Shown here piece after piece: positions 2,339 to 15,259 of a stretch of 64,000 nucleotides of DNA; the stretch's first letter is position 1; every line of letters begins with the position of its first letter. Origin of the DNA: Bacteroidaceae bacterium (GTDB lineage: Bacteria; Bacteroidota; Bacteroidia; Bacteroidales; Bacteroidaceae); the NCBI GenBank assembly GCA_017451645.1, contig JAFTNZ010000024.1:1-64000 (forward strand), in the 5' to 3' direction. A model generated the notes under the pieces. That model was given only the letters and a program-made list of their open reading frames with translations. It was not told the DNA's origin and searched no databases. The translations under genes and the position numbers were made by a program.

Positions 2339-3169
2339 TTACGGGTAGAATAACACAAAACCATTATAACCATTGAAAAAATACTCATACCTTAACTCAA
2401 TAGAACTCTCATTAACAGGGGCGAGAAACTTTCCATAACCAGTATTCTCACGTCTAACATAAGATTCCACAAACGGATATTTTACACTCTCTAAATTCTC
2501 TCCAAACTCGATGCTCCCGATATCAGACAAAAATGATTGAGAATGAAATAAATCTCTAAGAGTTGCCTTGGTAGGCGTAGGATCTTTCATCACAAGTAAC
2601 GCACATCGTATTGGCGAAAACTCAACAAGCCTACGAAGAGTTGCATGAATTGAAGCACCAAAGAATGGAGAAACCTTTATTGCTGTCTGTATTGTCAACG
2701 GTTCATCTTTTACCATCTCAGCAAACTTGTCTCCTTGGAACATTGTTTCAGAGGCAAAATAACTTGCCTCTGCCTCAAACTGTTCCTTAGTCTCTGGGCT
2801 TAGCGTAAAATCATCGTCTGCATGCATGGAGGCTATAGCCACCTGCCATGGAAGATTATGTCCAACCTCATGTAATAGTGTAAACCTCTGTCTTTCTAAA
2901 TTACACGACCTATCTAAATAAATTATTCTAGCCTCTCGAACAAGAAGCCCTCGCAGTTGACCAAGCAGTTTTTTAAGAATAGAGGAATCTCTATCAATAT
3001 ATATAGGTGTAACTATAGATAAATCCTGTGGCGAAACCTTTAGGTCTATAAAAGCAGCTAATTTATCTGCGGGAGTTGGGAATGTATCAATACAACGACT
3101 TGACACAAGTAAATCATGTGACCACTTCTTGATGTCTTGTTTTGTTGATTCTTCTAAAACTATAGCCAT
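2339..3169 (-). CDS. ImmA/IrrE-family zinc metallopeptidase
   Basis: The product is 276 aa. A zincin motif HEVGH lies at residues 100-104, followed by EAEASYFASETMF at about 132-144, which supplies the third zinc ligand and the helix typical of ImmA/IrrE (COG2856). Members of this family usually cleave or displace a partner HTH repressor and so switch on phage, ICE or stress genes. The start codon overlaps the stop of the HTH gene upstream by one base (TAATG), which indicates translational coupling. The C-terminal 120 residues are not recognised. The pair is divergent from the ubiquitin-like operon, so it is a candidate for controlling that operon; this last point is inference. Confidence 0.88.
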   Translation of the reverse strand: MAIVLEESTKQDIKKWSHDLLVSSRCIDTFPTPADKLAAFIDLKVSPQDLSIVTPIYIDRDSSILKKLLGQLRGLLVREARIIYLDRSCNLERQRFTLLHEVGHNLPWQVAIASMHADDDFTLSPETKEQFEAEASYFASETMFQGDKFAEMVKDEPLTIQTAIKVSPFFGASIHATLRRLVEFSPIRCALLVMKDPTPTKATLRDLFHSQSFLSDIGSIEFGENLESVKYPFVESYVRRENTGYGKFLAPVNESSIELRYEYFFNGYNGFVLFYP

Positions 3170-3513
3170 TATTTATCCCGTTGTCTTATAAAGTTGAGAT
3201 AGTTTAAGAGTTCTTTTTCTTCTTCATCAGTCAATGCTGTACCAGCAGAAGCTGCTACAGACTGAAGAATCTTGTGTTTAGGGGTGCTTTGCTCTTTCTT
3301 TTCGATAACACCACCAGCAGAAAGCAAAGTTTCCAACTCAACATCATATGTCTGAGAAAGTTTGTAGAGAGTATTTGCTGAAGGATGGGCAATTTTATCG
3401 TTCTCTAGCTGACTCAGATATGCGTTTGAAATACCTGTTTTCTCTTCAACTTGCCTTAACGTAAGCTTATTAATCTCACGGTATTGCTTTAATAGTTTGC
3501 CTATTGTGTCCAT
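3169..3513 (-). CDS. XRE-family HTH repressor paired with ImmA/IrrE
   Basis: The product is 114 aa from ATG 3513. The frame extends upstream to 3576, but only the 3513 start gives the usual MDTIGKLLKQYREI opening. An HTH_3 domain spans about residues 5-65 (LTLRQVEEKTGISNAYLSQLE), followed by an acidic/charged tail ending in LNYLNFIRQRDK. It is coupled to the downstream ImmA/IrrE gene through TAATG. The likely promoter on the minus strand is CTTG-N20-TAAATTTG (3577 to 3546). It faces the multiubiquitin promoter across a 212-bp intergenic region that contains an inverted repeat, so this protein probably represses one or both directions. Confidence 0.85.
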   Translation of the reverse strand: MDTIGKLLKQYREINKLTLRQVEEKTGISNAYLSQLENDKIAHPSANTLYKLSQTYDVELETLLSAGGVIEKKEQSTPKHKILQSVAASAGTALTDEEEKELLNYLNFIRQRDK

Positions 3514-3565
3514 AAAATGGGGGTTGTTGTAGCTTAATGACGTTGCAAATTTAGTGAGAAAATCT

Positions 3566-3613
3566 AAATTAAACAAGAAAAATTTGATATTTTAAGATTT
3601 TTCTGTTAAATTT
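3566..3613. promoter_or_regulatory. imperfect inverted repeat between divergent promoters (possible operator)
   Basis: The arms 3566-3584 and 3596-3613 are near reverse complements (AAATTAAACAAGAAAAAT against ATTTTTCTGTTAAATTT, allowing a one-base indel). The repeat lies just beyond the -33 region of the HTH gene and just before the multiubiquitin promoter, a position that suits an HTH operator. Assignment to this HTH protein is inference. Confidence 0.45.
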
Positions 3614-3624
3614 CACTAGACTTG

Positions 3625-3656
3625 CTTGGTATATTTAGATTTTTATTATACCTTTG
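3625..3656 (+). promoter_or_regulatory. Bacteroidota-type promoter for the ubiquitin-like operon
   Basis: CTTG at 3625-3628 (-33 region) and TACCTTTG at 3649-3656 (-7 region) are separated by 20 bp, close to the Bacteroidota consensus. Transcription would begin near 3662, leaving a leader of about 65 nt before the ATG at 3726. Confidence 0.65.
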
Positions 3657-3725: not shown

Positions 3726-4265
3726 ATGACAGAGATTAATTCAAAGTCCTTCGCTGAACAAGAAGGCAATCAGGGTAACGTAGGAAAACACAAGCCCAAT
3801 GAAAACAAAAAGTCCTACAAGTTTAAAATCAATGGTGGAAAGCCCTACAACTGGCCCACGCCTATTATTAATGAGACCGACATCAGAAGGCTTGGACAAG
3901 TTCCTGATGATGAAGATATATATCTGGATTTGCCAGGTAACTGGAGAGAGGCTCTTATTAATAGAGGTGAAGACGTTGACCTGTCTTCTCCGGGAATGGA
4001 CAAGTTCATTACCCGAAAGAAAGGTCATGAGCACGAATGCACCATCTATGTGAATTCAGAAGCTTTCAAGTATGACCAGCCTACTATCTCATACGAAAAA
4101 GTTGCTTCTCTCGCTTATGGGAAGGACTACGACCCTAATCGTGTGTATTCAATGACATACAGTAAAGGACCATCAGAGAATGAAGAAGGATTAATGTCTA
4201 AAGGTAAAGTCGTTTATGTCACAAATGGAATGGAATTCGATGTTGCCATCTCTCATCAGTCTTAA
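3726..4265 (+). CDS. multiubiquitin-domain protein (two beta-grasp domains)
   Basis: The product is 179 aa. After a polar 27-residue lead, two ubiquitin-like (Multi_ubiq, PF14452-type) domains can be read. Domain 1 spans about 28-98 (YKFKINGGKPYNWPTPIINETDI up to DLSSPGMDKF, read in pieces). Domain 2 spans about 104-177 (CTIYVN, ISYEKVASLAYG, VYSMTYSKGP, GMEFDVAISHQS). The C-terminus ends in HQS, with no visible di-glycine, so conjugation would need a different end or trimming. The stop lies inside the start region of the E1-like gene, which signals coupling. Together with the next genes it forms a prokaryotic ubiquitin-like operon. It is the presumed modifier or scaffold; conjugation itself is inference. 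Confidence 0.85.
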   Translation: MTEINSKSFAEQEGNQGNVGKHKPNENKKSYKFKINGGKPYNWPTPIINETDIRRLGQVPDDEDIYLDLPGNWREALINRGEDVDLSSPGMDKFITRKKGHEHECTIYVNSEAFKYDQPTISYEKVASLAYGKDYDPNRVYSMTYSKGPSENEEGLMSKGKVVYVTNGMEFDVAISHQS

Positions 4266-5424
4266 TGAGGATTTGCAGAAAATCCAAGATGAGGGAATCA
4301 GCTTTGATGTGCGCAGCGGCAATTTTGTTGCCGACTGCGTACCTTACCTAACTGAGTCGAAGGAGGTAAAGGCAGGAATACTTGTATTTCCTATGAATTG
4401 GAAGAATCAGAAGATTCTAAAACCTAATGACCACACCGCATACTTCATTGGTGGTAAGCCGTGTGAAATGGATGGTGCTCCTATAAAGGGACTAGGTATC
4501 TTGGAGATGCGACACCCTTTGTTTGATACCATTATCAGTGATTATCGCTTTTCATGTTATCCGGATAAAGGCATGTACCCGACCTATTATGACAAGGTGC
4601 TCAACTATTGGAGAATAATAACTGCTCCAGCTGTTAACACCGATCCGTTAGCGTGTAGGGCACTCAAAAAGCAGAAATTGATAAAGCCTGCAGATAGCAA
4701 ACTTGTTTATTGGGACATCAATTCGTCACGCGCACATATTGCTGGTTTGACAGACATGTTCAAAGGAATGAAAGTTGCCATTATCGGCTTGGGAGGCACA
4801 GGGTCATATATCCTTGACTTTATTGCAAAGTTACCACTTGAAGAGATTCATCTATTTGACTCCGACATCTTCAAGCAACACAATGCTTTTAGGGCACCTG
4901 GTGCTGCTCCATCACAAATACTGGAGAAAAACATTCCAAAAGTCCAGTACCTAACTGAGGTATATAGGAACATGAATGAAGCTATTGTCCCGCATCCAGA
5001 AAACATCAATCCAAATAACAAGGATTTCCTGTTAGGAATGGACTTCATCTTCTTGTGCATCGACAAAGCTGCCGTAAGAAATGAAATAGCACATTTTCTG
5101 ATTCAGAACAACAAGAAGTTTGTGAATTCAGGAATAGGAGTATCTCTTAGAGAAGGTGGTCTTTCAGGCATAATCCGCGTCTCATATGGTGAGCCAGACC
5201 ATTACCAATACCTTAACGACGCCTTTGATGCGACAAATGAAGCCAAGGAAGATGATCTCTATCGAGACAATATCCAGATAGCAGAACTGAATGCTTTCGC
5301 TGCTATGGAATCGGTATTCAGATGGAAACAATCATTAGGGTTCTATCAAAATTCTGCAATATCCTACGATTTAGCGTTTGTATTGAACAAGAATAAAATT
5401 ATTTATGATGACCCGACAGTTTAA
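4240..5424 (+). CDS. ThiF-family E1-like adenylyltransferase with N-terminal E2-like (DUF6791-type) region
   Basis: The product is 394 aa from ATG 4240; in-frame ATGs also exist at 4216 and 4225. I prefer 4240 because the protein then begins MLPSLISL, leaving less overlap with the upstream gene. Residues 1-150 match my memory of the DUF6791 region found before bacterial ThiF domains (SVPY-like CVPYLTES, THxxYF-like HTAYFIGGKPC). Residues about 175-370 form the ThiF/E1 Rossmann domain: GLGGTGS 183-189 (ATP loop), FDSD 206-209, HNAFRAPGA 214-222 (Arg), and CIDKAAVR 273-280. The CxxC zinc pairs of MoeB/ThiF are absent. It would adenylate the C-terminus of the beta-grasp protein. I cannot assign the catalytic thioester or oxyester residue. 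Confidence 0.85.
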   Translation: MLPSLISLNEDLQKIQDEGISFDVRSGNFVADCVPYLTESKEVKAGILVFPMNWKNQKILKPNDHTAYFIGGKPCEMDGAPIKGLGILEMRHPLFDTIISDYRFSCYPDKGMYPTYYDKVLNYWRIITAPAVNTDPLACRALKKQKLIKPADSKLVYWDINSSRAHIAGLTDMFKGMKVAIIGLGGTGSYILDFIAKLPLEEIHLFDSDIFKQHNAFRAPGAAPSQILEKNIPKVQYLTEVYRNMNEAIVPHPENINPNNKDFLLGMDFIFLCIDKAAVRNEIAHFLIQNNKKFVNSGIGVSLREGGLSGIIRVSYGEPDHYQYLNDAFDATNEAKEDDLYRDNIQIAELNAFAAMESVFRWKQSLGFYQNSAISYDLAFVLNKNKIIYDDPTV

Positions 5425-5752
5425 GTTAAAATTCTTGGACAACATACCAAACGAATTGGATGAGGGCGTATTATACATATCCATGAAGTACCACACAACA
5501 GCCCATCTATGCGCATGCGGTTGTGGAGAGAAGGTCGTAAACCCTCTTAACCGAAAGTATGGCTGGACTCTAACATTTGATGGTCAAAGAGTAAGTCTTT
5601 CACCTTCTATAGGGAACTATCAATTCCCATGCTGCTCACATTATTATATTAAGGAGAACGAGGTCTTATTTCTTGACTCTGATGATGACATGCCACATAG
5701 AAGAGGGTACATTCGTAGACTAATAGACTGGTTTATGAAACTATTCAGATAA
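5405..5752 (+). CDS. DUF6527-family protein, ubiquitin-like operon component
   Basis: The product is 115 aa and overlaps the E1-like gene by 20 nt; adjacent ATGs at 5405 and 5408 both fit. Metal-ligand-like residues form two groups: H34, C36, C38 and C40 (HLCACGCG), and C76, C77 and H79 (CCSHYYI). Between them lies SPSIG (66-70), characteristic of DUF6527. The C-terminal 20 residues are basic. In the operons I know of, DUF6527 genes sit directly after multiubiquitin/E1 genes. I recall proposals that the family acts on the Ubl as a processing or deconjugating enzyme, but I cannot verify this here. The linkage of the three genes is seen directly; the enzymatic role is uncertain. Confidence 0.8.
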   Translation: MMTRQFKLKFLDNIPNELDEGVLYISMKYHTTAHLCACGCGEKVVNPLNRKYGWTLTFDGQRVSLSPSIGNYQFPCCSHYYIKENEVLFLDSDDDMPHRRGYIRRLIDWFMKLFR

Positions 5753-5820
5753 GTAATGTATAACGGTTGCCTGAAACATGCAACCAAATTAATTCCCGAA
5801 AAGGACGGGCAAGGAAAGAC

Positions 5821-5991
5821 ATGGCAACAAATCCCCCAAGTGGCGATGGCCACAGAAACGGTATGGTACGCCAGAGAAGTCAAGTCTTGAATCCCAAAAC
5901 TGGAATTTGGACAAAACGCGGTCCCAATGGACAGTTTATGGATGGAAAACAAGATGGAACTCCATTCAAAGGCGTGAGAAAAGAAAAATGA
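5821..5991 (+). CDS. 56-aa conserved basic protein at end of ubiquitin-like operon
   Basis: I start it at ATG 5821, preceded by an AAGGAAAG-like ribosome-binding stretch (5810-5817). A longer frame from 5767 is possible but has no such signal. The product is 56 aa, Gly/Arg/Lys-rich, with the pattern DGHRNGxVRxRSQ then NPKTGIWTKR, GQFMDxK and PFKGVRKE. I recognise this as a widespread, unnamed small protein with many relatives in bacteria. It follows DUF6527 by 68 bp and is followed within 10 bp by a terminator, so it is the last cistron. It could be a substrate or accessory factor of the Ubl pathway, but its presence outside such operons weakens that idea. Confidence 0.72.
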   Translation: MATNPPSGDGHRNGMVRQRSQVLNPKTGIWTKRGPNGQFMDGKQDGTPFKGVRKEK

Positions 5992-6001
5992 TTTTAGAAT
6001 G

Positions 6002-6038
6002 TGCCTCGCAGATGTGAATCAACGAGGCATTTTATTTT
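6002..6038 (+). terminator. terminator of the ubiquitin-like operon
   Basis: TGCCTCG (6002-6008) and CGAGGCA (6023-6029) form a 7-bp stem with a 14-nt loop, followed by TTTTATTTT. It closes the operon about 10 bp after the last stop codon. Confidence 0.75.
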
Positions 6039-6221
6039 AAACAGATCTAATTACTTGAACGGCGGAATGACATTGTGCCGTTTAGAATCATCATGAGGCC
6101 ATGACATTATAGTTCCATAATATCCTCCATGAAATAGTCGAGATTATGCTGTCTAACATTATATGCATAGTCAATCCCAATCAAGAAAAATCATCAAGTT
6201 TGTGATTTTTCTGTGTTTTCT

Positions 6222-6600: not shown

Positions 6601-7030
6601 ATGAACGAAGAAATTTGTAAGAACATTCCGGCGACTTATCCCCTCTGCCTGCATGACGACTGTCCGAAGGCCGACACCTGCCTTCGTCAACTGGCCTTCC
6701 GCCAGCACGCCGGACAGGGACTCTATCTGAGATTGCTCAACCCCACGAGATGCCCCAAGCAGGAAAACTGTCCGCACTATGCCGACAGCCAGGCGGTTTG
6801 CCAAAGGCTTCACCAACTTCCAGAAGCAGATGTTCCCCGGCCAGTATGACAAGTTCATGACCATGCTGATTGCTCACTTCGGGCGCAATCCCTATTTCAT
6901 GCGCCGTCGGGGCGAAACCCTTCTTCCGCCCAAAGAGCAGGAGATCATCAAGATAGCCCTTAAAAAGAGTGGAGTTACCCAATCCATGGAATTTGACCAA
7001 TACGTTGAGGGCATCAATTGGGAGCCATAA
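6601..7030 (+). pseudogene. DUF6078-family gene interrupted by a frameshift
   Basis: Two overlapping frames together spell one DUF6078-like protein. The first, from ATG 6601, gives MNEEICKNIPATYPLC with cysteine pairs (DCPKADTC, CPKQENCPHY) and reads well to about 6793. The second carries on from about 6794 with RFAKGFTNFQKQMFPGQY, FGRNPYFMRRRG and the conserved end, stopping at 7030. Joining them needs a -1 step at GCGGTTT (6793-6799), consistent with a one-base deletion. No classical slippery heptamer with a following pseudoknot is apparent. The family is common and unexplained in Bacteroidales. Sequencing error, mutation or recoding cannot be told apart here. Confidence 0.7.
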
Positions 7031-7236: not shown

Positions 7237-7866
7237 TTATCCTTTAGAATCTCCTTCAAAAAGAGCATCCATAAACCTATCGAAATCACTTTGGAACAGG
7301 CGGTCTTGTATGATACGATACTTCTCAAATTCCGTTTCTGCATGTTCTTTTGCTTGATCGGCAGACACTTGTCCTGTCGTTTGTAGAACTTCGTTACCAC
7401 CAGCAGCCAAAATGGTGTCTATCTGTTTCGCCCAATCCTCCATTGTCATTGGAATATGACGTTTTGCCATTCTTTTCTTATCCAAAACATATCCACGTAT
7501 AGCGAACTCTTGCAATACGCTCGTTGCCCACTGACGGAATTGAGTTGCCCGGATGCTGTTCACACGATAACCAACACTAATAACAGCATCGAGATTGTAG
7601 AACTGCGTCATATATTTCTTGCCATCGGAAGCAGTTGCCGAGATTTTCTCGGTAACTGAATCCTTTTCAAGTTCCCCAGAAGCAAAGATATTCTTTAGAT
7701 GAAGTCCGATGTTATCTGTAGAGCAATCAAACAGCATACCCATCGCCTTCTGGGTACACCAAACAGTCTTATCCTTATAATAGACCTCAACACCTTGTTC
7801 CTTCCCTTCAATTTGAAAGATAAGGAACTCTACTGTGCTATTTCTTATTTCTTTACGATTTGCCAT
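7237..7866 (-). CDS. rhuM: RhuM-family protein in type I RM operon
   Basis: The product is 209 aa. The N-terminal two thirds carry the RhuM pattern: VEVYYKDKTVWCTQKAMGMLF, HLKNIFASGEL, YNLDAVISVGYRVNS, QFRQWATSVL. A short helical tail ends in RLFQSDFDRFMDAL. The function of RhuM (described as a virulence protein in Salmonella) is unknown, but in Bacteroidales it commonly sits in or beside hsd operons. Here it is the last gene, 65 bp downstream of hsdR on the same strand. It is shorter than the 300+ aa RhuM proteins but has a natural-looking end. A shorter relative lies at 33409-34014. Confidence 0.85.
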   Translation of the reverse strand: MANRKEIRNSTVEFLIFQIEGKEQGVEVYYKDKTVWCTQKAMGMLFDCSTDNIGLHLKNIFASGELEKDSVTEKISATASDGKKYMTQFYNLDAVISVGYRVNSIRATQFRQWATSVLQEFAIRGYVLDKKRMAKRHIPMTMEDWAKQIDTILAAGGNEVLQTTGQVSADQAKEHAETEFEKYRIIQDRLFQSDFDRFMDALFEGDSKG

Positions 7867-7931: not shown

Positions 7932-10900
7932 TTATGCAATCCCCCCATACCGCTGGCTGACATAGTTATATACGGCATCTCTATAGTAGTTGATGCTTTC
8001 ATCAGAATAGCTTTCTGGTAAATCGCTCCAGAGCGTATTACGGATGGCAATGATGATTGTCGCTTTTGTTTCTTGCTTATCAAAAGGATGATCCATTGTC
8101 TCTATCAGGTTTTTAATCTTTGCCAATAGCTCCACTGCGACCTTTTTCAGTTTCTTGATATCTTCTTTCGAAAGATTTTCTTTCATCAGTACATCGTATA
8201 TCGAGAGTTGCTCATCATTTTCAAATCCTTCGCGGACGTAGCGTTTCTCTTCTTCCGTGAGTTGGTGTGACAGTTGCATCAACTCCTCAAAAGTCCTTTC
8301 GATGTTCACGCGGTTTTGTTCCTGATTATATTCGTTGATGATGCTTTGATATTTCTCATAAAAGTTGATGCGCGAAGGATTCTGTGCCAACATTTGTGCG
8401 ATGCGCTCCTGCAACAACTCCTGAATATCTTTCATAATCAGATTCCTTTCTCTGCTTCTTGCAAACTCCCGCCTCAGCAAATCGAAGTTAATGCCGCTGA
8501 TGTCGAAACGGCGAGATGCTGTATCATCTTTCAACGTGGTAACATCTATCTGTATATGTTCATTCACAATGTCATTGATGGCTACACTCAAATCTGTGAT
8601 GTCCGCATGTTTCCGTTTTTTCTGCAATTCCTTGTAAATAGCCTCTATAGCATCTTTCTGCTGCTTCATTTCTGGCGTGATGTCTTCACGGTCCAGATAC
8701 TTCCATAGTTTCAGCAGTGTAGTGGCATAGGTGCAATAAGTCTTTCTTATCTCTGCCGTTTCACACATGGCGTTGGCAGCCTCTTTCAGAAGATAGAGTT
8801 TAAAGAAATTATCTGCTTCTATCAACTCTTTCAATTCAAAATCGTGTTCCTTCAGGAATTCCGTAGCCGCTGCTATTGCCTCGTGCACATGTTTGATAAG
8901 TTCATTTTTGTCTATCGTCGGGTCGTTTCCACCTTCTCCACCTTCCGGATTGGCTGTATAGTCGGCCAATGCCTGACGAAGGGCCTTTACGATACCTATA
9001 TAGTCAATGATGAGTCCATTGGTCTTACCTTCTGCCACACGGTTGGCACGGGCAATGGTCTGCATCAGTGTATGTGCTTTCATAGGCTTGTCAATATACA
9101 GGCACGATAGTGTCTTCACATCAAAACCCGTAAGCCACATGGCACAAACGAATACTATCCTCAGTTTGTTGTCCTTATCCCTGAATTCTTTGTCAAGCTC
9201 CCGATCTTCCATCTTTTTACGATGTGGCAGTATATCCAATCCCCATTTCTGGAAGGTCTGTATCTCGTTCTGTTCTTGCGATACCACCACCGCCATCTCC
9301 GTTTCTTGCATCCATGTGAGCTTGCGGTTCAGTTCCTGCACCTCCTGTTGGGACGTGGATGCGGCAATCAGTTTTTCCAATGCGGCTATTTCTTTTTGCC
9401 AATATTCCTGCACATACTCGTACATCCGTACGCATGTCACTTTATTGTAGCTCACCATCATGGCCTTTCCCGATGTCCAAAGGTCACTATAATGATGCAC
9501 AAAGTCTTTCGCTACAATGCGCAGACGCTTTTTGGCTGTCAGCAGATGCACTTCTTTGGCAAACTCCCGTTCCAACTTGGCCAATTGCGAAGCATCCATA
9601 TCACCGGCTTGCTCCAAGGCTGCTGCTATCTCTTCATTTATTTCGGGATTCTTCAAATCCTGCAATCTTTCTCCTCGGTTCTCATAATATAATGGTACAG
9701 TAGCTTTATCTTCCACCGCACGCTTGAAGTCGTAAATACTGACATATCCACCAAAGGTGCGAGCCGTGATATTATCGTTGGAGAGTAAAGGAGTACCCGT
9801 GAATCCTATTCGGCTGGCCGTAGGCAACAGGTGCATCAGGTTATCAGCAAAGATTCCATTCTGTGTGCGATGCGCCTCATCACTGATTACCACAATGTCG
9901 TGGTCGGGATAAATAGGTTCTGCATCCGGTCGGTTGAATTTCTGTATCAGCGAGAAGATAAACGAAGGATTTCCTTTCAGTTTGGTTATCAGGTCCTCAC
10001 CACTTTGGGCGATAAACATTTCTGCCTTAACTTTGCCCAACATGCCGCAATTCTCAAACGTTCCGCTAATTTGCTTATTCAATTCTTCGCGGTCGGTCAA
10101 TACCACAATGGTAGGCGAGCCGGTAAACTTACGTCGAATCTTTTGTGCCAAGAACAGCATGGAATAACTTTTCCCACTACCTTGCGTGTGCCAGAATACG
10201 CCCAACTTGCCATTGACATACTCGCGGTTCTTGTACATCTCTACCGCCTGGTTTACTCCCAGATATTGGTGATTGCGAGCCATAATCTTAACCGTATGTC
10301 CATCCGAATGGTCGTAAAGAATAAAGTTCTCCAACAGGTCTAAGAAGTTCTCTTTCTTGCAGATACCACGCAGCATGGTAGTCAATTCGATGCTTCCTGC
10401 TTCCATTTCGTTCAATCGTTTCCATTCGTGGAAGAATTCCCATTTCGAATCAATGGTACCTACCCTTGCTTCCAGTCCGTTGCTGAACATGATGAAGGCA
10501 TTGTGGTGGAACAATTGCGGTATGGTATCCAAATAGTCCCGATAGTTTTTGTTGAATGCATCTACCACCTCTACATCGTGGTTCTTCAGTTCCATAAAGA
10601 GCAACGGAATACCATTTACAAAACCTACGATATCGGCTCTTCTTCGGTACAAGGCACCATATACCCATAGTTCTCGCACACAGAGAAATTCATTCTTTTG
10701 CGGAGAAGCAAAGTCTATTACTTTAGCCCTTACCTCTTCTGTTTCTCCATCCGGTTTGGTACGGGTTACGGGGATGCCATCTTTGATGTAATGATACTTC
10801 TCCTCGTTGATTTGCATCAACGTTTGGCTGCTCATGCGTTCTGTCATCCGCTCTACCGCTTCGGCCAACTGCTTCTCCGTCATCCACGGATTCAGAGCCT

Positions 10901-11081
10901 TCAGTGCCTTGCAGAAATGACGCACAAGCAACACTTCGTGATAGCTCTTTCTGCCCAAGGTTCCTGTTTCGCCAAGCACCTCTGCATCCCATGCCATCAC
11001 ACTGGTCCAACCGAGTTCTTTTTCCAACAAATCGGCTGCACTTTTCTGTATCAGTTGGTCTTCGCTGTAGTCTTTTGACAT
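7932..11081 (-). CDS. hsdR: type I restriction endonuclease subunit R
   Basis: The product is 1049 aa, a normal HsdR length. It reads as an N-terminal PD-(D/E)XK nuclease (D150 in RRADIVGF and E164-L-K166 in MELKN), then the SF2 translocase: Walker A TQGSGKS at about 299-305, DEAH 401-404, and FTGTP around 427-431. Helicase motifs V/VI lie near WLTGFDVKTL and QTIARANR. The C-terminal helical part would contact the M2S core. HsdR cleaves unmodified DNA far from the recognition site after ATP-driven translocation. The start at 11081 is 19 bp after the hsdS stop (11101), so the genes are co-transcribed. All motifs look intact. Confidence 0.96.
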   Translation of the reverse strand: MSKDYSEDQLIQKSAADLLEKELGWTSVMAWDAEVLGETGTLGRKSYHEVLLVRHFCKALKALNPWMTEKQLAEAVERMTERMSSQTLMQINEEKYHYIKDGIPVTRTKPDGETEEVRAKVIDFASPQKNEFLCVRELWVYGALYRRRADIVGFVNGIPLLFMELKNHDVEVVDAFNKNYRDYLDTIPQLFHHNAFIMFSNGLEARVGTIDSKWEFFHEWKRLNEMEAGSIELTTMLRGICKKENFLDLLENFILYDHSDGHTVKIMARNHQYLGVNQAVEMYKNREYVNGKLGVFWHTQGSGKSYSMLFLAQKIRRKFTGSPTIVVLTDREELNKQISGTFENCGMLGKVKAEMFIAQSGEDLITKLKGNPSFIFSLIQKFNRPDAEPIYPDHDIVVISDEAHRTQNGIFADNLMHLLPTASRIGFTGTPLLSNDNITARTFGGYVSIYDFKRAVEDKATVPLYYENRGERLQDLKNPEINEEIAAALEQAGDMDASQLAKLEREFAKEVHLLTAKKRLRIVAKDFVHHYSDLWTSGKAMMVSYNKVTCVRMYEYVQEYWQKEIAALEKLIAASTSQQEVQELNRKLTWMQETEMAVVVSQEQNEIQTFQKWGLDILPHRKKMEDRELDKEFRDKDNKLRIVFVCAMWLTGFDVKTLSCLYIDKPMKAHTLMQTIARANRVAEGKTNGLIIDYIGIVKALRQALADYTANPEGGEGGNDPTIDKNELIKHVHEAIAAATEFLKEHDFELKELIEADNFFKLYLLKEAANAMCETAEIRKTYCTYATTLLKLWKYLDREDITPEMKQQKDAIEAIYKELQKKRKHADITDLSVAINDIVNEHIQIDVTTLKDDTASRRFDISGINFDLLRREFARSRERNLIMKDIQELLQERIAQMLAQNPSRINFYEKYQSIINEYNQEQNRVNIERTFEELMQLSHQLTEEEKRYVREGFENDEQLSIYDVLMKENLSKEDIKKLKKVAVELLAKIKNLIETMDHPFDKQETKATIIIAIRNTLWSDLPESYSDESINYYRDAVYNYVSQRYGGIA

Positions 11082-11100
11082 AGTATCCTATTGTTTAAGA

Positions 11101-12231
11101 TTATACTCCTATTTCTCCACTCATTAACTTGGGAAGCAAGCGATCGCGTGCTTCGGTGAGGTGAAGAATTTGTGATATAAGTTTCTCTTTTTGAGTTCTA
11201 ATTGATTCTATTATCTGATTAAAAGAATCAAGTACAATCGTAGAAGGTTCGTTAATTACAAGGTTCTCTATCATTCCTTTTGTTAGGAACTTAATTGTTG
11301 ATCCACTTGCTTCTATCGCCAATCTTTTCATATTTTCTGCAATACAAAAATAGAGTAGGTAAAGCATCTTATCATTTATGGGTTCTAAAACATATGTTCT
11401 TTGATACGCCTCAAATTTTCCACGATACAACTTTACATTAAAATCCCCATTTCCGGCAAGAATAACAGCATTTGTGTCAAATGAATATGAAGGAGCCTTT
11501 ATAGGCTCTTGTGCACAAGTAAAGAATGGGAAAGGGCCATCGTTCGTTCCAAAGTTCGCATCTTTCTTTCCCGTTTTAATTGGAGTTACATCTCCTACCT
11601 TCTTCTTTTCCCACCCCTCAGGTACACCATCCACAATCTTAGTGTTTTCGTGACCAGGGAAGCGGAGGTCAATGAACCATTCCTTATAGAGACGTTGAGC
11701 GGATTCCTCTAATAGCTTTATTTGCTTTTGATAGTTTTCTATCAAGGAATCGTAACGGGAAAGGATGGTCGTAATACGTTGCTGAGTATCCAAATTTGGA
11801 TATGATATTTCAATAGAATTGAAAAGTGTATGTGGTAGATCAGGCTGCGCTGCTCCTCTTGCTAATGAATTTGCTTTCTCGAAAAAATAATGACTTTGTA
11901 ATAGATAATAGAGAAAATCTCTGGATAAAATACATTCATCATTTGGAGTTACAGTGAAACAATTATTATGTACAACTCCATAATTATTTCTAAAAACAAG
12001 TCCTACATTACCAGTCCTTGTATAGATTATATCTTGAGGTTTTGCTATGAAATTCTGAGGAATATCCTCTTTTACAAAAATTTCTCTCGAACCACTTTTC
12101 ATATCAGCAATACGAAGTAATGCCAAAGACGTTTGTTCTTTAGATATGTAATGCTTAGATTTTACATTTATTGCAAATCCCTGCCTTAATGTTACCAACT
12201 CACCTATTGCAATCTTTCTCCACTCACTCAT
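11101..12231 (-). CDS. hsdS: type I restriction specificity subunit S
   Basis: The product is 376 aa. Two target recognition domains can be read: TRD1 about 1-150 and TRD2 about 205-330. Each is followed by a helical spacer (TQQRITTILSRYDSLIENYQ near 155 and FNQIIESIRTQKEKLI near 340), ending RDRLLPKLMSGEIGV as HsdS proteins usually do. The ATG overlaps the stop of the DUF1016 gene (ATGA), which indicates coupling. No second or silent hsdS cassette and no adjacent recombinase is present in the window, so shuffling of this gene is not supported. The bipartite recognition sequence cannot be read from the protein. Confidence 0.95.
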   Translation of the reverse strand: MSEWRKIAIGELVTLRQGFAINVKSKHYISKEQTSLALLRIADMKSGSREIFVKEDIPQNFIAKPQDIIYTRTGNVGLVFRNNYGVVHNNCFTVTPNDECILSRDFLYYLLQSHYFFEKANSLARGAAQPDLPHTLFNSIEISYPNLDTQQRITTILSRYDSLIENYQKQIKLLEESAQRLYKEWFIDLRFPGHENTKIVDGVPEGWEKKKVGDVTPIKTGKKDANFGTNDGPFPFFTCAQEPIKAPSYSFDTNAVILAGNGDFNVKLYRGKFEAYQRTYVLEPINDKMLYLLYFCIAENMKRLAIEASGSTIKFLTKGMIENLVINEPSTIVLDSFNQIIESIRTQKEKLISQILHLTEARDRLLPKLMSGEIGV

Positions 12232-13457
12232 ACCTCATCCTCCTTTTCATTTTTTCCTTTGTCACTCATCAAGTGTTTTAAAGCATCAATATCAGGCAGA
12301 GCTTTACGGATGTTCTCTGGCATATCGTCAGCAGTCTTGTAAGTGGCCACACCCATAGGCTTGGAATAGTCACGAATCATAAACTCCACATATTCACGAT
12401 TTGCAGACTTGCACAACACAATGCCGATGCAAGGGTTCTCGTGAGGCTTCTTAATCTTCTCGTCCAGAATAGTCAGATAGCCCATTAACTGACCCAGATA
12501 ACTGGTCTTAAATTCTCCCATCTTCAGCTCAATCACCACCATTGCATTCAGTTCGCGGTTAAAGAACAACAGGTCTGGGAATTGCTCTATACCATATACT
12601 TCCAACAGTTGCTGGTTACCTATAAACGCAAAGTCGCGACCTATGGTCATGATGAAGTTCTTCACTTTGTTTATAATCTCCCGTTCAACGACTCGTTCAT
12701 CTACGTCGATACTGTCTCGAATACCAATTTCCTCTACATTGATGAAGTCCAATAGGTAAGAGTCTTTGAACATCATTACAGCCTTCCGCATCATTGTCGC
12801 ATTAGCGATAGTCTTCGTGAAATTACTGGGCATCTGTTCGCGATGGCCGTAAGCATCATTCTTCAATAGTTTTTTCAAGTCATCCACAGAAAGATGCTCT
12901 TCTGCTGTGCGATGGATATAGTAGTAACGCGCGTCAAGCGTTTTTTCGCTTGCGATAATACGTGTATGATGTGTGAAGGGTACCTTGAAAAAATCCTCAA
13001 CAGGGAACTCTGTTATATTGGGAATTTGTATGACTTGATGTATATCTATATGATTTTCGGCAAGTTGTAATTCGTCGGTTGCAACCGACGAATTGTTTGC
13101 TTGGATTTCTGCAATCGCACTTGCCGATTTCTCTAAATCGTCGGTTGCAACCGACGAATTGGCATCAAGCATAATCCATGCTTCATAAAACAAACGCATT
13201 TCTTTCATCTGAGTTGCGGAATAGCCTCTCAGTCCTGGCAGTTCCCTGCGCAATTGGTTGCTGATAGCCTCTAAAGCACCAGTACCCCACACGTCCTTTC
13301 GTGTATGTTGCGAAATATACTTCCCGATACCGTAATACACGGCCAGCTGAATGCGATTCACTCCCTTGGCGGCTTCATATTGTCCCTGAAGAATGGCATC
13401 TTTGATATCTGCTACAGCCTGTAGCAGTTTTTCGTTGTTCTTCCCCAACTTGCTCAT
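12228..13457 (-). CDS. DUF1016/YhcG-type PD-(D/E)XK nuclease protein within hsd operon
   Basis: The product is 409 aa from ATG 13457. An upstream in-frame ATG at 13472 exists, but GGAGGA lies 8-13 bases before 13457 and the hsdM stop overlaps it as ATGA, so 13457 is preferred. An N-terminal DUF1016_N helical region (about 35-95, YYGIGKYISQ, GLRGYSATQMKEM) is followed by a linker with two NSSVATD copies (100-106 and 122-128). The YhcG-type nuclease domain follows (FPDLLFFNREL with D295, VVIELKMG with E310/K312). Genes of this family often sit between hsd genes in Bacteroidales. Their role is unproven; an accessory nuclease or restriction modulator is likely. Confidence 0.88.
   Translation of the reverse strand: MSKLGKNNEKLLQAVADIKDAILQGQYEAAKGVNRIQLAVYYGIGKYISQHTRKDVWGTGALEAISNQLRRELPGLRGYSATQMKEMRLFYEAWIMLDANSSVATDDLEKSASAIAEIQANNSSVATDELQLAENHIDIHQVIQIPNITEFPVEDFFKVPFTHHTRIIASEKTLDARYYYIHRTAEEHLSVDDLKKLLKNDAYGHREQMPSNFTKTIANATMMRKAVMMFKDSYLLDFINVEEIGIRDSIDVDERVVEREIINKVKNFIMTIGRDFAFIGNQQLLEVYGIEQFPDLLFFNRELNAMVVIELKMGEFKTSYLGQLMGYLTILDEKIKKPHENPCIGIVLCKSANREYVEFMIRDYSKPMGVATYKTADDMPENIRKALPDIDALKHLMSDKGKNEKEDEV
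13069..13157. repeat. two perfect palindromes, 66 bp apart, inside the DUF1016 gene
   Basis: Copy 1 (13069-13094) is a perfect 26-bp palindrome; copy 2 (13138-13157) is a perfect 20-bp palindrome with the same core TCGTCGGTTGCAACCGACGA. The copies are 66 bp (22 codons) apart in frame and encode the repeated NSSVATD in the interdomain linker. Confidence 0.9.
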
Positions 13458-15259
13458 TTCAGTTCCTCCCATGCCTTTTGTATTTCGTCCATCAGCACAT
13501 TGGCTTCATTGTTCAAGCGTTTCAGTTCTGCATGAATTTCGTTCATGCGTTCGTGGAAATCTACGCCATCGTCTTCGGCTTCTGCTACACCCACGTAAGC
13601 CCCCGGGGTGAGCGAATAGTTCTTTTCTTCAATTTCCTGAATGGTGGCTATCTTACAAAGTCCAAGTATATCCTTGTATTCACCTTCGCCAAATTTATCT
13701 GTCAGCCATTCGTATTGACGAGCCGTTTCCAACGTGTCTTCCAATGCATCTTGTATGGCTTTCATTTCTGCCTCGATGCGTTTCTTGTCCTTGCGTGCAG
13801 CATTGGCAATGACTTCTTTAGCTTCAGCTTTCTGCTTGTCAAGGGCTTCTTGGGCAGATGCTACCGTAGTGTCACCCAATACTTGTCTGTAATCGTTGAG
13901 TAATGTTTGGTATTTCTCTGTTTCACCACGATAAAGATGAACGATGGCTTGCAGATTGCGAAGCTGCCATTCGGTCCATTCGTTGAGGGTACGGTCGACT
14001 ACCGTGTAGTAATTGCGGGCATCGATGAAAAGTACCTTGTCCCGATTCTTTGCACGTTTCGCCTTGTCGAAGAACCACAACGAACAAGGAAGTGAAAGGG
14101 TATAGAAGAAGTTGTTACCTACACTGACCATTATGTCTACATCGCCTGTACGCACCAGCTTTTCACGAATGTCGCGGTCTTTGTTGGCACTGTCCGTAGC
14201 CGAACTTGCCATAACGAAGCCGGCACGTCCGTGGTTGTTCAAATAGGCATAGAAATAACTGATCCAAAGGTAGTTGGCATTGCCAATCTCCTTGCTCTTG
14301 GCATTTACACCTGGCAAGCCAAAAGGCAAACGACCGGCTGCCCATGCCGACTCGCTCTTTACCTTATCGACATTGAACGGAGGATTAGCCATCACATAGT
14401 CGCACTTGCCTTCCAAATTGTGGGTATCGTGGTAGAAAGAATTGGCTTCGTCGCCCGATACAATCTTTCCGTTCAATCCATGAACCGCCATGTTCATCAA
14501 ACAAAGTTGGGCATTGTATTCCACCTTTTCCTGACCGTAGAAAGTCATTTGGGTATTGGCATTCAATCCTGCATGATTCACAAAATCGCCCGTCTGTACA
14601 AACATACCGCCTGAACCACAGGCTGGGTCGAGCATAATGCCCGATGTAGGTTCCAATACATTGACCAACATCTTTACCAATGATTTTGGGGTAAAGAACA
14701 CACCATCGTCACTGGCTACGGCCTTGGCAAACTTGGAAAGGAAATATTCATAAATACGACCTATCACATCGCCACCGACCTCATCAATCGTCTTGTTGTT
14801 GAAGATGCGAAGCAAATCGCTGAGCAAGTCGTCGGCAAACATGGTGTAGCTTTTCGGTAATACACCTATGAGTTGTTCGCTTTGTTCCTCTACCAATTGC
14901 ATGGCATAGTTCACAGCCTCGCCTAATGAATTGATGTTTTGTCCGTCTTTGGTCCTCAATCCTGCATCAGCAATATTTTCAGGAAGGTTCACCAAATAGT
15001 CATATTGTGCCTCACGGGGAAGGAAAAGTGCGCTCTTTGCTGTAAAGTCACTCGCTTCAACAGGCATTACCCTTCCTCCTCTTGAAGGACGGCTTTGCAA
15101 AATTTCAGCTTCTACCATCTTAAAACGGCTATAGGCATAGCGAAGGAATAACAAGGCAAGAACCGGCATACAATACTGACTACTGGTAAGCTTACTGCCT
15201 TGTCTTAACAAATCAGCCGATTCCCATAATTCGGTTTCGAGTTTCTTTATATTGGTCAT
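13454..15259 (-). CDS. hsdM: type I restriction-modification methyltransferase subunit M
   Basis: The product is 601 aa. An HsdM_N helical region (about 5-150) precedes the N6-adenine methyltransferase core with SAM motif I DPACGSGGMF (211-220) and catalytic motif IV NPPF (292-295). A long charged helical C-terminus (about 440-600) would bind HsdS. It methylates adenines in the sequence set by HsdS and forms the M2S core of the R2M2S complex. The stop is fused to the start of the DUF1016 gene (ATGA). The small HTH gene lies 72 bp upstream, probably as the first cistron and controller. Confidence 0.95.
   Translation of the reverse strand: MTNIKKLETELWESADLLRQGSKLTSSQYCMPVLALLFLRYAYSRFKMVEAEILQSRPSRGGRVMPVEASDFTAKSALFLPREAQYDYLVNLPENIADAGLRTKDGQNINSLGEAVNYAMQLVEEQSEQLIGVLPKSYTMFADDLLSDLLRIFNNKTIDEVGGDVIGRIYEYFLSKFAKAVASDDGVFFTPKSLVKMLVNVLEPTSGIMLDPACGSGGMFVQTGDFVNHAGLNANTQMTFYGQEKVEYNAQLCLMNMAVHGLNGKIVSGDEANSFYHDTHNLEGKCDYVMANPPFNVDKVKSESAWAAGRLPFGLPGVNAKSKEIGNANYLWISYFYAYLNNHGRAGFVMASSATDSANKDRDIREKLVRTGDVDIMVSVGNNFFYTLSLPCSLWFFDKAKRAKNRDKVLFIDARNYYTVVDRTLNEWTEWQLRNLQAIVHLYRGETEKYQTLLNDYRQVLGDTTVASAQEALDKQKAEAKEVIANAARKDKKRIEAEMKAIQDALEDTLETARQYEWLTDKFGEGEYKDILGLCKIATIQEIEEKNYSLTPGAYVGVAEAEDDGVDFHERMNEIHAELKRLNNEANVLMDEIQKAWEELK

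Follow-up and report, generated by a model that had tools for sequence, protein, structure and literature searches.

The window analysed here, i.e. a stretch of 64,000 nucleotides (nt) of contig JAFTNZ010000024.1 from a Bacteroidaceae bacterium of the gut and part of a 72.6%-complete genome, carries four open reading frames (ORFs) at 3726-5991 that encode a ubiquitin-like modifier, an E1-type enzyme with DUF6791 and ThiF domains, a DUF6527 protein and a protein of 56 amino acids (aa). Judged by sequence, the first three form a mobile unit of a known kind, a sibling of the 'Bub' pathways, and the 56-aa protein is a portable companion that is not part of the conjugation machine. The genes and their order, an intact adenylation motif, an invariant C-terminal serine, a gene overlap, the homology of the regulators and the spread of the small protein can be read from the DNA itself. 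It seems fairly probable that the operon is an E2-less and JAB-less branch of the Bub / type-6e systems, which is released by DNA damage and works by the mechanism proposed below. Held more tentatively, and short of probable, is the wider reading in which the 56-aa protein serves as a general immune accessory of unrelated DNA-damage-controlled operons (Pycsar, CBASS, two kinds of Bub, and others) and of prophages, with one conserved partner, and in which the window pathway uses a C-terminal Ser for conjugation, with no dedicated E2 or JAB.

The modifier (3726..4265, forward strand, 179 aa, ending in ISHQS) matches Pfam Multi_ubiq in two stretches (2.7e-18) and is homologous to the multi-ubiquitin-domain proteins of PDB 9cd2 (1.8e-16, residues 28-174) and 9d59, in line with two beta-grasp domains. 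The E1-type adenylation enzyme (4240..5424, in an ORF that opens at 4216) matches Pfam DUF6791 at its N-terminus (1.1e-30) as well as ThiF (5e-18), and the third gene (5405..5752, 115 aa) matches DUF6527 (3e-21), both on the same strand. A sequence-only reading of this DNA had described a compact four-ORF operon whose beta-grasp domains and E1-type adenylating enzyme belong to a ubiquitin-like pathway; all of its ORFs were found, and these matches, together with the resemblance of the enzyme to BubCD (see below), bear it out.

Two kinds of locus can be distinguished among the relatives: type A, to which the window belongs (modifier, DUF6791-E1, DUF6527), and the E2-bearing type B (modifier, E2, E1 with a JAB motif, DUF6527). 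DUF6527 was found in 12 of 393 Bacteroidales genomes, which according to an ORF survey comprise eight of type A, three of type B (loci L087, L088 and L089 in our numbering) and one without an E1 nearby (L090). Of 395 Bacteroidota genomes searched, 14 contain DUF6791 and eight contain Prok-E2_E, the two lists having no genome in common. Loci with an E1 86-100% identical to that of the window come from Prevotella-type assemblies. For the E1 of L086, a related locus, 115 of 72,556 plasmid records contain relatives at E 1e-12, and in 109 records these extend over 80% or more of the query; Bacteroidota, Pseudomonadota and Cyanobacteriota are among the hosts. A search with an alignment of ten such E1 sequences gave six viral-contig matches, four of which are long relatives. 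The earlier expectation that the genes would be conserved together holds for the first three, whose order is kept in unrelated genomes of several phyla, but not for the fourth, which is absent at most such loci.

The C-terminus of the modifier is strikingly constant. In all 36 type A loci (the window counted once, the close relatives L024 and L026 included) the last residue is Ser and the second-last K, R, Q or E, and in 35 of them the fourth-last is T or S. In the overlap with the E1 gene, the Ser codon varies at a base that alters E1 residue 8 (L, H, R or A), and therefore it is the Ser, not the E1 residue, that is under conservation. The claim that the modifier ends without di-glycine thus stands, and a Gly-Gly-type modifier was rejected on the same 36 loci. 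As for type B, the modifiers end in EG or PG at L087, L088, L089 and L103, in FG at L189, and in EG plus a tail at L183, i.e. Gly is the last residue at the other five of the six ends read and GG at none of the six.

That the modifier acts mainly by self-assembly into filaments, the E1 and DUF6527 doing no more than control this process, is very unlikely. The homology to 9cd2 and 9d59 speaks for it, and three-domain bacterial modifiers reportedly form filaments, but several modifier relatives are short (83-105 aa, with room for about one domain), and the invariant terminal Ser, like the intact E1 site, indicates a chemical reaction at the C-terminus. At L189 (906-1463) the type B modifier is preceded by repeats that by eye resemble YegP/DUF1508; since yegP-like genes are reported after capK-capS in PMC13373217, YegP-type domains may belong to Bub-type biology.

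The E1 and DUF6527 genes overlap by 20 nt, as stated previously. The 50-nt overlap given for the modifier and E1 genes is correct for the ORF opening at 4216, but an ATG lies in the E1 frame exactly 26 nt inside the modifier gene at 35 of the 36 type A loci (L079 being the exception), and because of this conservation the window E1 probably starts at ATG 4240. The deposited annotation takes the same start in all seven plasmid loci fetched. Six residues, which form the adenylation site in MoeB, ThiF and E1 enzymes, are invariant in all 37 rows of the E1 alignment (three of the rows are repeats: L204 of the window, L194 of L111 and L205 of L110). Cys83 in DUF6791 is kept in 36 of the 37 rows and Tyr349 in every row; no Cys of the ThiF domain is invariant (Cys281 is present in 24). 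Tyr349 might, as a guess from its position, correspond to Tyr370 of Citrobacter BubCD, which according to its title is mutated in 9eav; the E1 of the E2-bearing relatives L087-L089 has a Tyr at 376 or 377. In a relative from the window's family the type A E1 gene is broken by a stop or frame break (L003 / L080).

In a Foldseek search with the E1 model, which mostly covers residues 144-384 (i.e. the E1 domain, with DUF6791 barely covered), BubCD chains top the list with the microcin C7 enzyme MccB among them (3h5r at rank 3, 5.9e-9). An MccB-like nucleotidylation, in which the Ser is adenylated or chemically converted, DUF6791 is a substrate clamp and no other protein is modified, would fit this ranking, the lack of an invariant Cys in the ThiF domain and the non-Gly end of the modifier. 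The fold is, however, common to E1-type enzymes, the sequence places BubCD (2.9e-8) far above MccB (0.06), and DUF6527 also occurs in E2-bearing operons. We regard nucleotidylation as unlikely.

The DUF6791 profile shows a weak resemblance to the Bub E2 that is encoded as a gene of its own, one that exceeds the controls (hhalign, P 0.0004, none of 60 column-shuffles scoring as high), and DUF6791 and ThiF are two overlapping genes at L199 and L203 (two genomes of one family). Because of this resemblance and the separate gene, DUF6791 is probably a built-in E2 equivalent. The earlier description of an E2-like N-terminus is therefore supported in part. A search of PDB sequences with DUF6791 gave at best an unrelated protein (0.086). 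A JAB-like DUF6791 was rejected (profile P 0.61 against only four JAB N-termini; no HxH...D motif by eye). Neither a JAB-type peptidase nor a separate E2 is found among the operon ORFs or their Pfam matches, as had been noted before, and this includes any Prok-E2_E-type gene; a search of the genome gave no Prok-E2_E match either, in a 72.6%-complete sequence and with a control that itself gave no match.

DUF6527 is conserved at C36/C38/C40...C76..H79 and at SLxPSxG, and has no match among PDB sequences by single sequence or by profile. The spacing of its Cys and His residues (C36-x3-C40-x35-C76-x2-H79) is that of protein Y, given as C-x(3)-C-x(35-38)-H-x(2)-C in Iyer 2006 (PMC1779556), with the last two residues (H and C) swapped.

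Of the known systems, Bub of Citrobacter (BubCD-BubB-BubA; 9ea4, 9ea5, 9ea8, 9eae, 9eav) shares with the window a beta-grasp modifier and an E1-type enzyme, and its BubCD is the closest solved fold and sequence for the window E1. Moreover, the E2-bearing relatives L087-L089 have a DUF6527 gene like the window operon, and CapH+CapP-type regulators, reported for Bub, are present beside it. Unlike Bub, the window branch has neither a BubB-type E2 nor a JAB on its E1, which measures about 390-402 aa versus 458 in Bub, and Ser rather than Gly is the last residue of its modifier. The anti-phage conjugation system Bil (BilABCD) follows the same logic of a ubiquitin-like protein plus an E1. Neither the E2 nor the JAB-type deubiquitinase of Bil was found in the window operon (ORFs, Pfam). 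Operon type 6e (Iyer 2006) resembles the window unit in its poly-ubiquitin-like protein, its small Cys/His protein and its mobile, sporadic distribution. In PMC1779556, a subset of type 6e has an E1 with an uncharacterized N-terminal domain ('domain X') instead of JAB, which is the arrangement of the window (a poly-ubiquitin-like protein beside an E1 with DUF6791 instead of JAB), and from its position we infer that DUF6791 is domain X. For some type 6e operons, that paper also describes a Cys-less E2/RWD domain, either as a fusion or as a separate protein; no such domain was found in the window operon, unless DUF6791 is its counterpart.

In the mechanism that we propose, the CapH-type repressor would silence the operon until the CapP-type protease senses single-stranded DNA (from DNA damage or phage) and releases it. 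The C-terminal Ser of the modifier would then be adenylated by the ThiF domain, after which the fused DUF6791, as E2 equivalent, would receive or position the activated modifier and hand it to a target, with the near-invariant Cys83 and the invariant Tyr349 as candidate acceptors. Conjugates might be trimmed or reversed by DUF6527, and the 56-aa protein would be a separate accessory, induced with the operon and not specific to the ubiquitin-like pathway. We infer every chemical step of this scheme, as well as the DNA-damage control at the window locus and the defence role.

The control part of the mechanism is based on a pair of genes of the CapH+CapP type that lies upstream of, and divergent to, the operon. 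The CapP-like M78 (IrrE/ImmA-type) peptidase (2339..3169, reverse strand, 276 aa) matches Pfam Peptidase_M78 (2.7e-11) and PADLOC capP (2.3e-18, the next best being RmrA at 1.4e-5). The CapH-like label of the helix-turn-helix (HTH) repressor gene (3169..3576, reverse strand) rests on Pfam HTH_19 (1.3e-16) and on its pairing with the M78 gene; TTG 3576 gives the longest ORF, but translation more likely begins with the ATG of codon 22 (about 3513). The pair and all four operon genes are kept at L022, L023, L024 and L026 (the contig of L025 begins too near the operon to show the pair), and a diverged pair is present at L080 and L083. Genes that look sigma-like by eye are found at L081, L082, L084 and L086, of which only L081 gives a CapP-like match (3.3e-5). 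At L120 an ImmA/IrrE gene is annotated, together with an HTH, and further type A loci are without these regulators (e.g. L117 with a CopG gene, and L118, L119 and L121 with UvrD-helicase genes). According to PMC13373217, 219 of 544 Bub operons adjoin CapW or CapH+CapP, and CapP, as described for other loci, is activated by single-stranded DNA and cleaves CapH. DNA damage probably switches the window operon on.

Other arrangements were also seen. A UvrD-helicase gene lies upstream of the type A operon at L118, L119 and L121 (cyanobacterial, Acinetobacter and Cereibacter plasmids), with a transposase gene in between at L119. At L082, L084, L086, L099 and L108 a sigma-factor-like gene (by eye) is divergent to type A or CBASS operons, accompanied at L099 and L108 by a gene for ~114 aa and an M78 peptidase; this arrangement is possibly another control circuit of the CapP type.

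Since CapH/CapP-type control responds to DNA damage, the operon could instead be a general stress or DNA-repair module that has no part in anti-phage defence. At L116, umuD and a Y-family polymerase gene adjoin the operon, and PMC13373217, in which Bub operons are not shown to protect against phage, keeps this possibility open for Bub. The patchy, mobile and plasmid-borne spread (the 115 of 72,556 plasmid records) argues against it, as does the type I restriction cluster that adjoins the operon on the reverse strand (7932-15259: HsdR 7932-11081, HsdS 11101-12231, a YhcG-type nuclease 12228-13472 and HsdM 13454-15259) and confirms the restriction-rich surroundings noted earlier. Altogether, a general stress or repair role appears rather unlikely to us.

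As to expression signals, the promoter assigned to 3625-3656 can be retained in part. A putative Bacteroidota-type promoter at 3626..3656 on the forward strand (TTG at 3626-3628, a 20-nt spacer and TACCTTTG at 3649-3656) fits the consensus (TTG-N20-TAnnTTTG) by eye, but it is absent from the listing of the sigma-70 scan. Repeats looked for in promoter regions turned out to be AT-rich ones only, with no evident significance. The terminator placed at 6002-6038 holds up well as an intrinsic hairpin (6002..6038, forward strand): the region 5992-6045 folds at -18.4 kcal/mol (z = -4.78), with none of 200 shuffles as good, and the hairpin was missed by a terminator scan that allows a loop of at most 8.

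The fourth gene (5821..5991, forward strand, ATG 5821, stop 5991) follows the DUF6527 gene after a gap of 68 nt. Its product, here called s56, matches PADLOC PDC-S38 over its full length (1.8e-30, residues 19-74 of the long ORF) and phrog_12550 (2e-15). In the PADLOC library PDC-S38 is a single-gene phage defence candidate, whose row gives no function or partner. The protein is basic (net charge +7, isoelectric point 11.0) and has no Pfam family, with chance-level matches only. Its AlphaFold model (pLDDT 75.8) combines a short helix with a beta-meander and has no PDB fold match at E 0.001, and the best PDB match of its profile is a designed trefoil (0.15). The family is conserved across phyla, with 16 invariant columns in 19 sequences and five in 38 sequences when distant viral-contig copies are included, and it occurs in 62 plasmid records, 16 phage records, 59 viral-contig loci and 20 of 395 Bacteroidota genomes, as well as in six of 201 genomes of the window's family. 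Rather than a core part of the pathway, it is a widespread family of its own, and it is absent from most type A loci.

In fact, the gene is last in the operon in the window's clade and is present at one of 24 stretches (L079-L090 and L115-L126), which is why we regard the protein as a portable companion. At that one stretch, L083, it opens a type A operon that is flanked by CapH/CapP-type genes.

Its neighbourhood was surveyed at 20 non-window loci (L095-L114) in 19 of the 395 Bacteroidota genomes. The 3.5 kb upstream of these genes hold 66 ORFs of 100 aa or more, of which Pfam assigns 12 to the M78 peptidases; 12 of the 66 match capP, nine capH and up to 12 the RmrA models (RmrA being M78 as well). 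Counted per locus, an M78 protein is upstream at 13 of 20 (L095, L096, L098-L100, L102, L107-L113), its gene overlapping the start of the 56-aa gene at L098. Seven of these match capP individually (L095, L096, L099, L100, L102, L107, L112), those of L095 and L102 matching RmrA models better, while the other six match the M78 of other loci without self-hits (L098, L108, L109, L110, L111, L113). With the single WYL match of the upstream set (a regulator at L103), the total for M78 or WYL is 14 of 20. The orientation of the upstream regulators varies (partly divergent, partly on the strand of the 56-aa gene).

Downstream on the same strand, Pycsar genes are found at five of the loci (L095, L096, L101, L106, L109), CBASS cyclases at three (L099, L105, L108) and Bub operons at three (type B at L103, type A at L110 and L111 of one genome), i.e. 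11 of 20 in total. TIR-type genes follow at L104. No defence match was obtained at L097, L100, L107 and L114, where downstream genes were scanned singly. At L098 and L102 the 3.5 kb downstream contain no ORF that reaches 100 aa, and L112 and L113 have no recognised defence gene, from the pooled tally only. A distance of 1.5 kb separates the 56-aa gene from the Pycsar genes at L109, with a transposase-like ORF on the opposite strand in between, and therefore 'upstream of' does not always mean the same operon.

Elsewhere, a WYL-type gene is divergent to the 56-aa gene on Klebsiella and Yersinia ruckeri plasmids, and the gene accompanies a CBASS-like operon in Vibrio, lies beside arsenic genes on a Hymenobacter plasmid and is located in the repressor-antirepressor region of two prophage-type phages. 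A 96%-identical copy at L092, with no Bub operon in the fetched stretch, lies behind a WYL-type gene (2e-19) and a DUF1883-like gene (by eye); DUF1883 also comes after the 56-aa gene on a Klebsiella plasmid.

Whether the protein is merely mobile cargo near defence genes, functionally unconnected to the operon, depends on how these neighbourhoods are weighed. Its presence at only one of the 24 stretches (most of which hold a type A operon), its occurrence on other plasmids (the one with arsenic genes included) and in prophages, its last position after the 68-nt gap, and the nine of 20 loci without Pycsar, CBASS or Bub downstream all agree with cargo. Against this, it has repeatedly been joined to Bub operons in what is apparently one transcription unit (the window, L083, L103 and L110/L111), and the start of a core immune gene (by phmmer label) lies on the same strand, no more than 500 nt downstream, at six of 20 loci (L095, L096, L103, L106, L110, L111), compared to six of 210 other genes from the same stretches. 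Furthermore, on a tree of 36 copies (from a short alignment) the Bub label needs five changes, gains and losses alike, of which at least four are forced by well-supported branches. Label shuffles were as low in 24 of 500 cases for Bub and in four of 200 for all labels together, and therefore the association is repeated but not random. On balance, mere cargo is somewhat doubtful.

Two further features close to the operon are a RhuM-family gene at 7237-7866, by the restriction cluster, and two overlapping ORFs at 6601-7030 (forward strand) that match the DUF6078 profile at 2-69 and 70-145, i.e. one gene that is apparently frame-broken.

What is new here is the link of PDC-S38 to M78/WYL-regulated Pycsar, CBASS and Bub operons. 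Both the E2-less, JAB-less, Ser-ending design and the portable small companion are worth testing, the latter being small enough for this to be done quickly. If the 56-aa protein works together with each of Pycsar, CBASS and Bub, it would point to a common step of immunity that is invisible to the study of any single system. If the Ser-ending, E2-less branch conjugates proteins, its ubiquitin-like chemistry would be a minimal one, on which it could be tested how much of the E1-E2-E3 cascade such chemistry requires.

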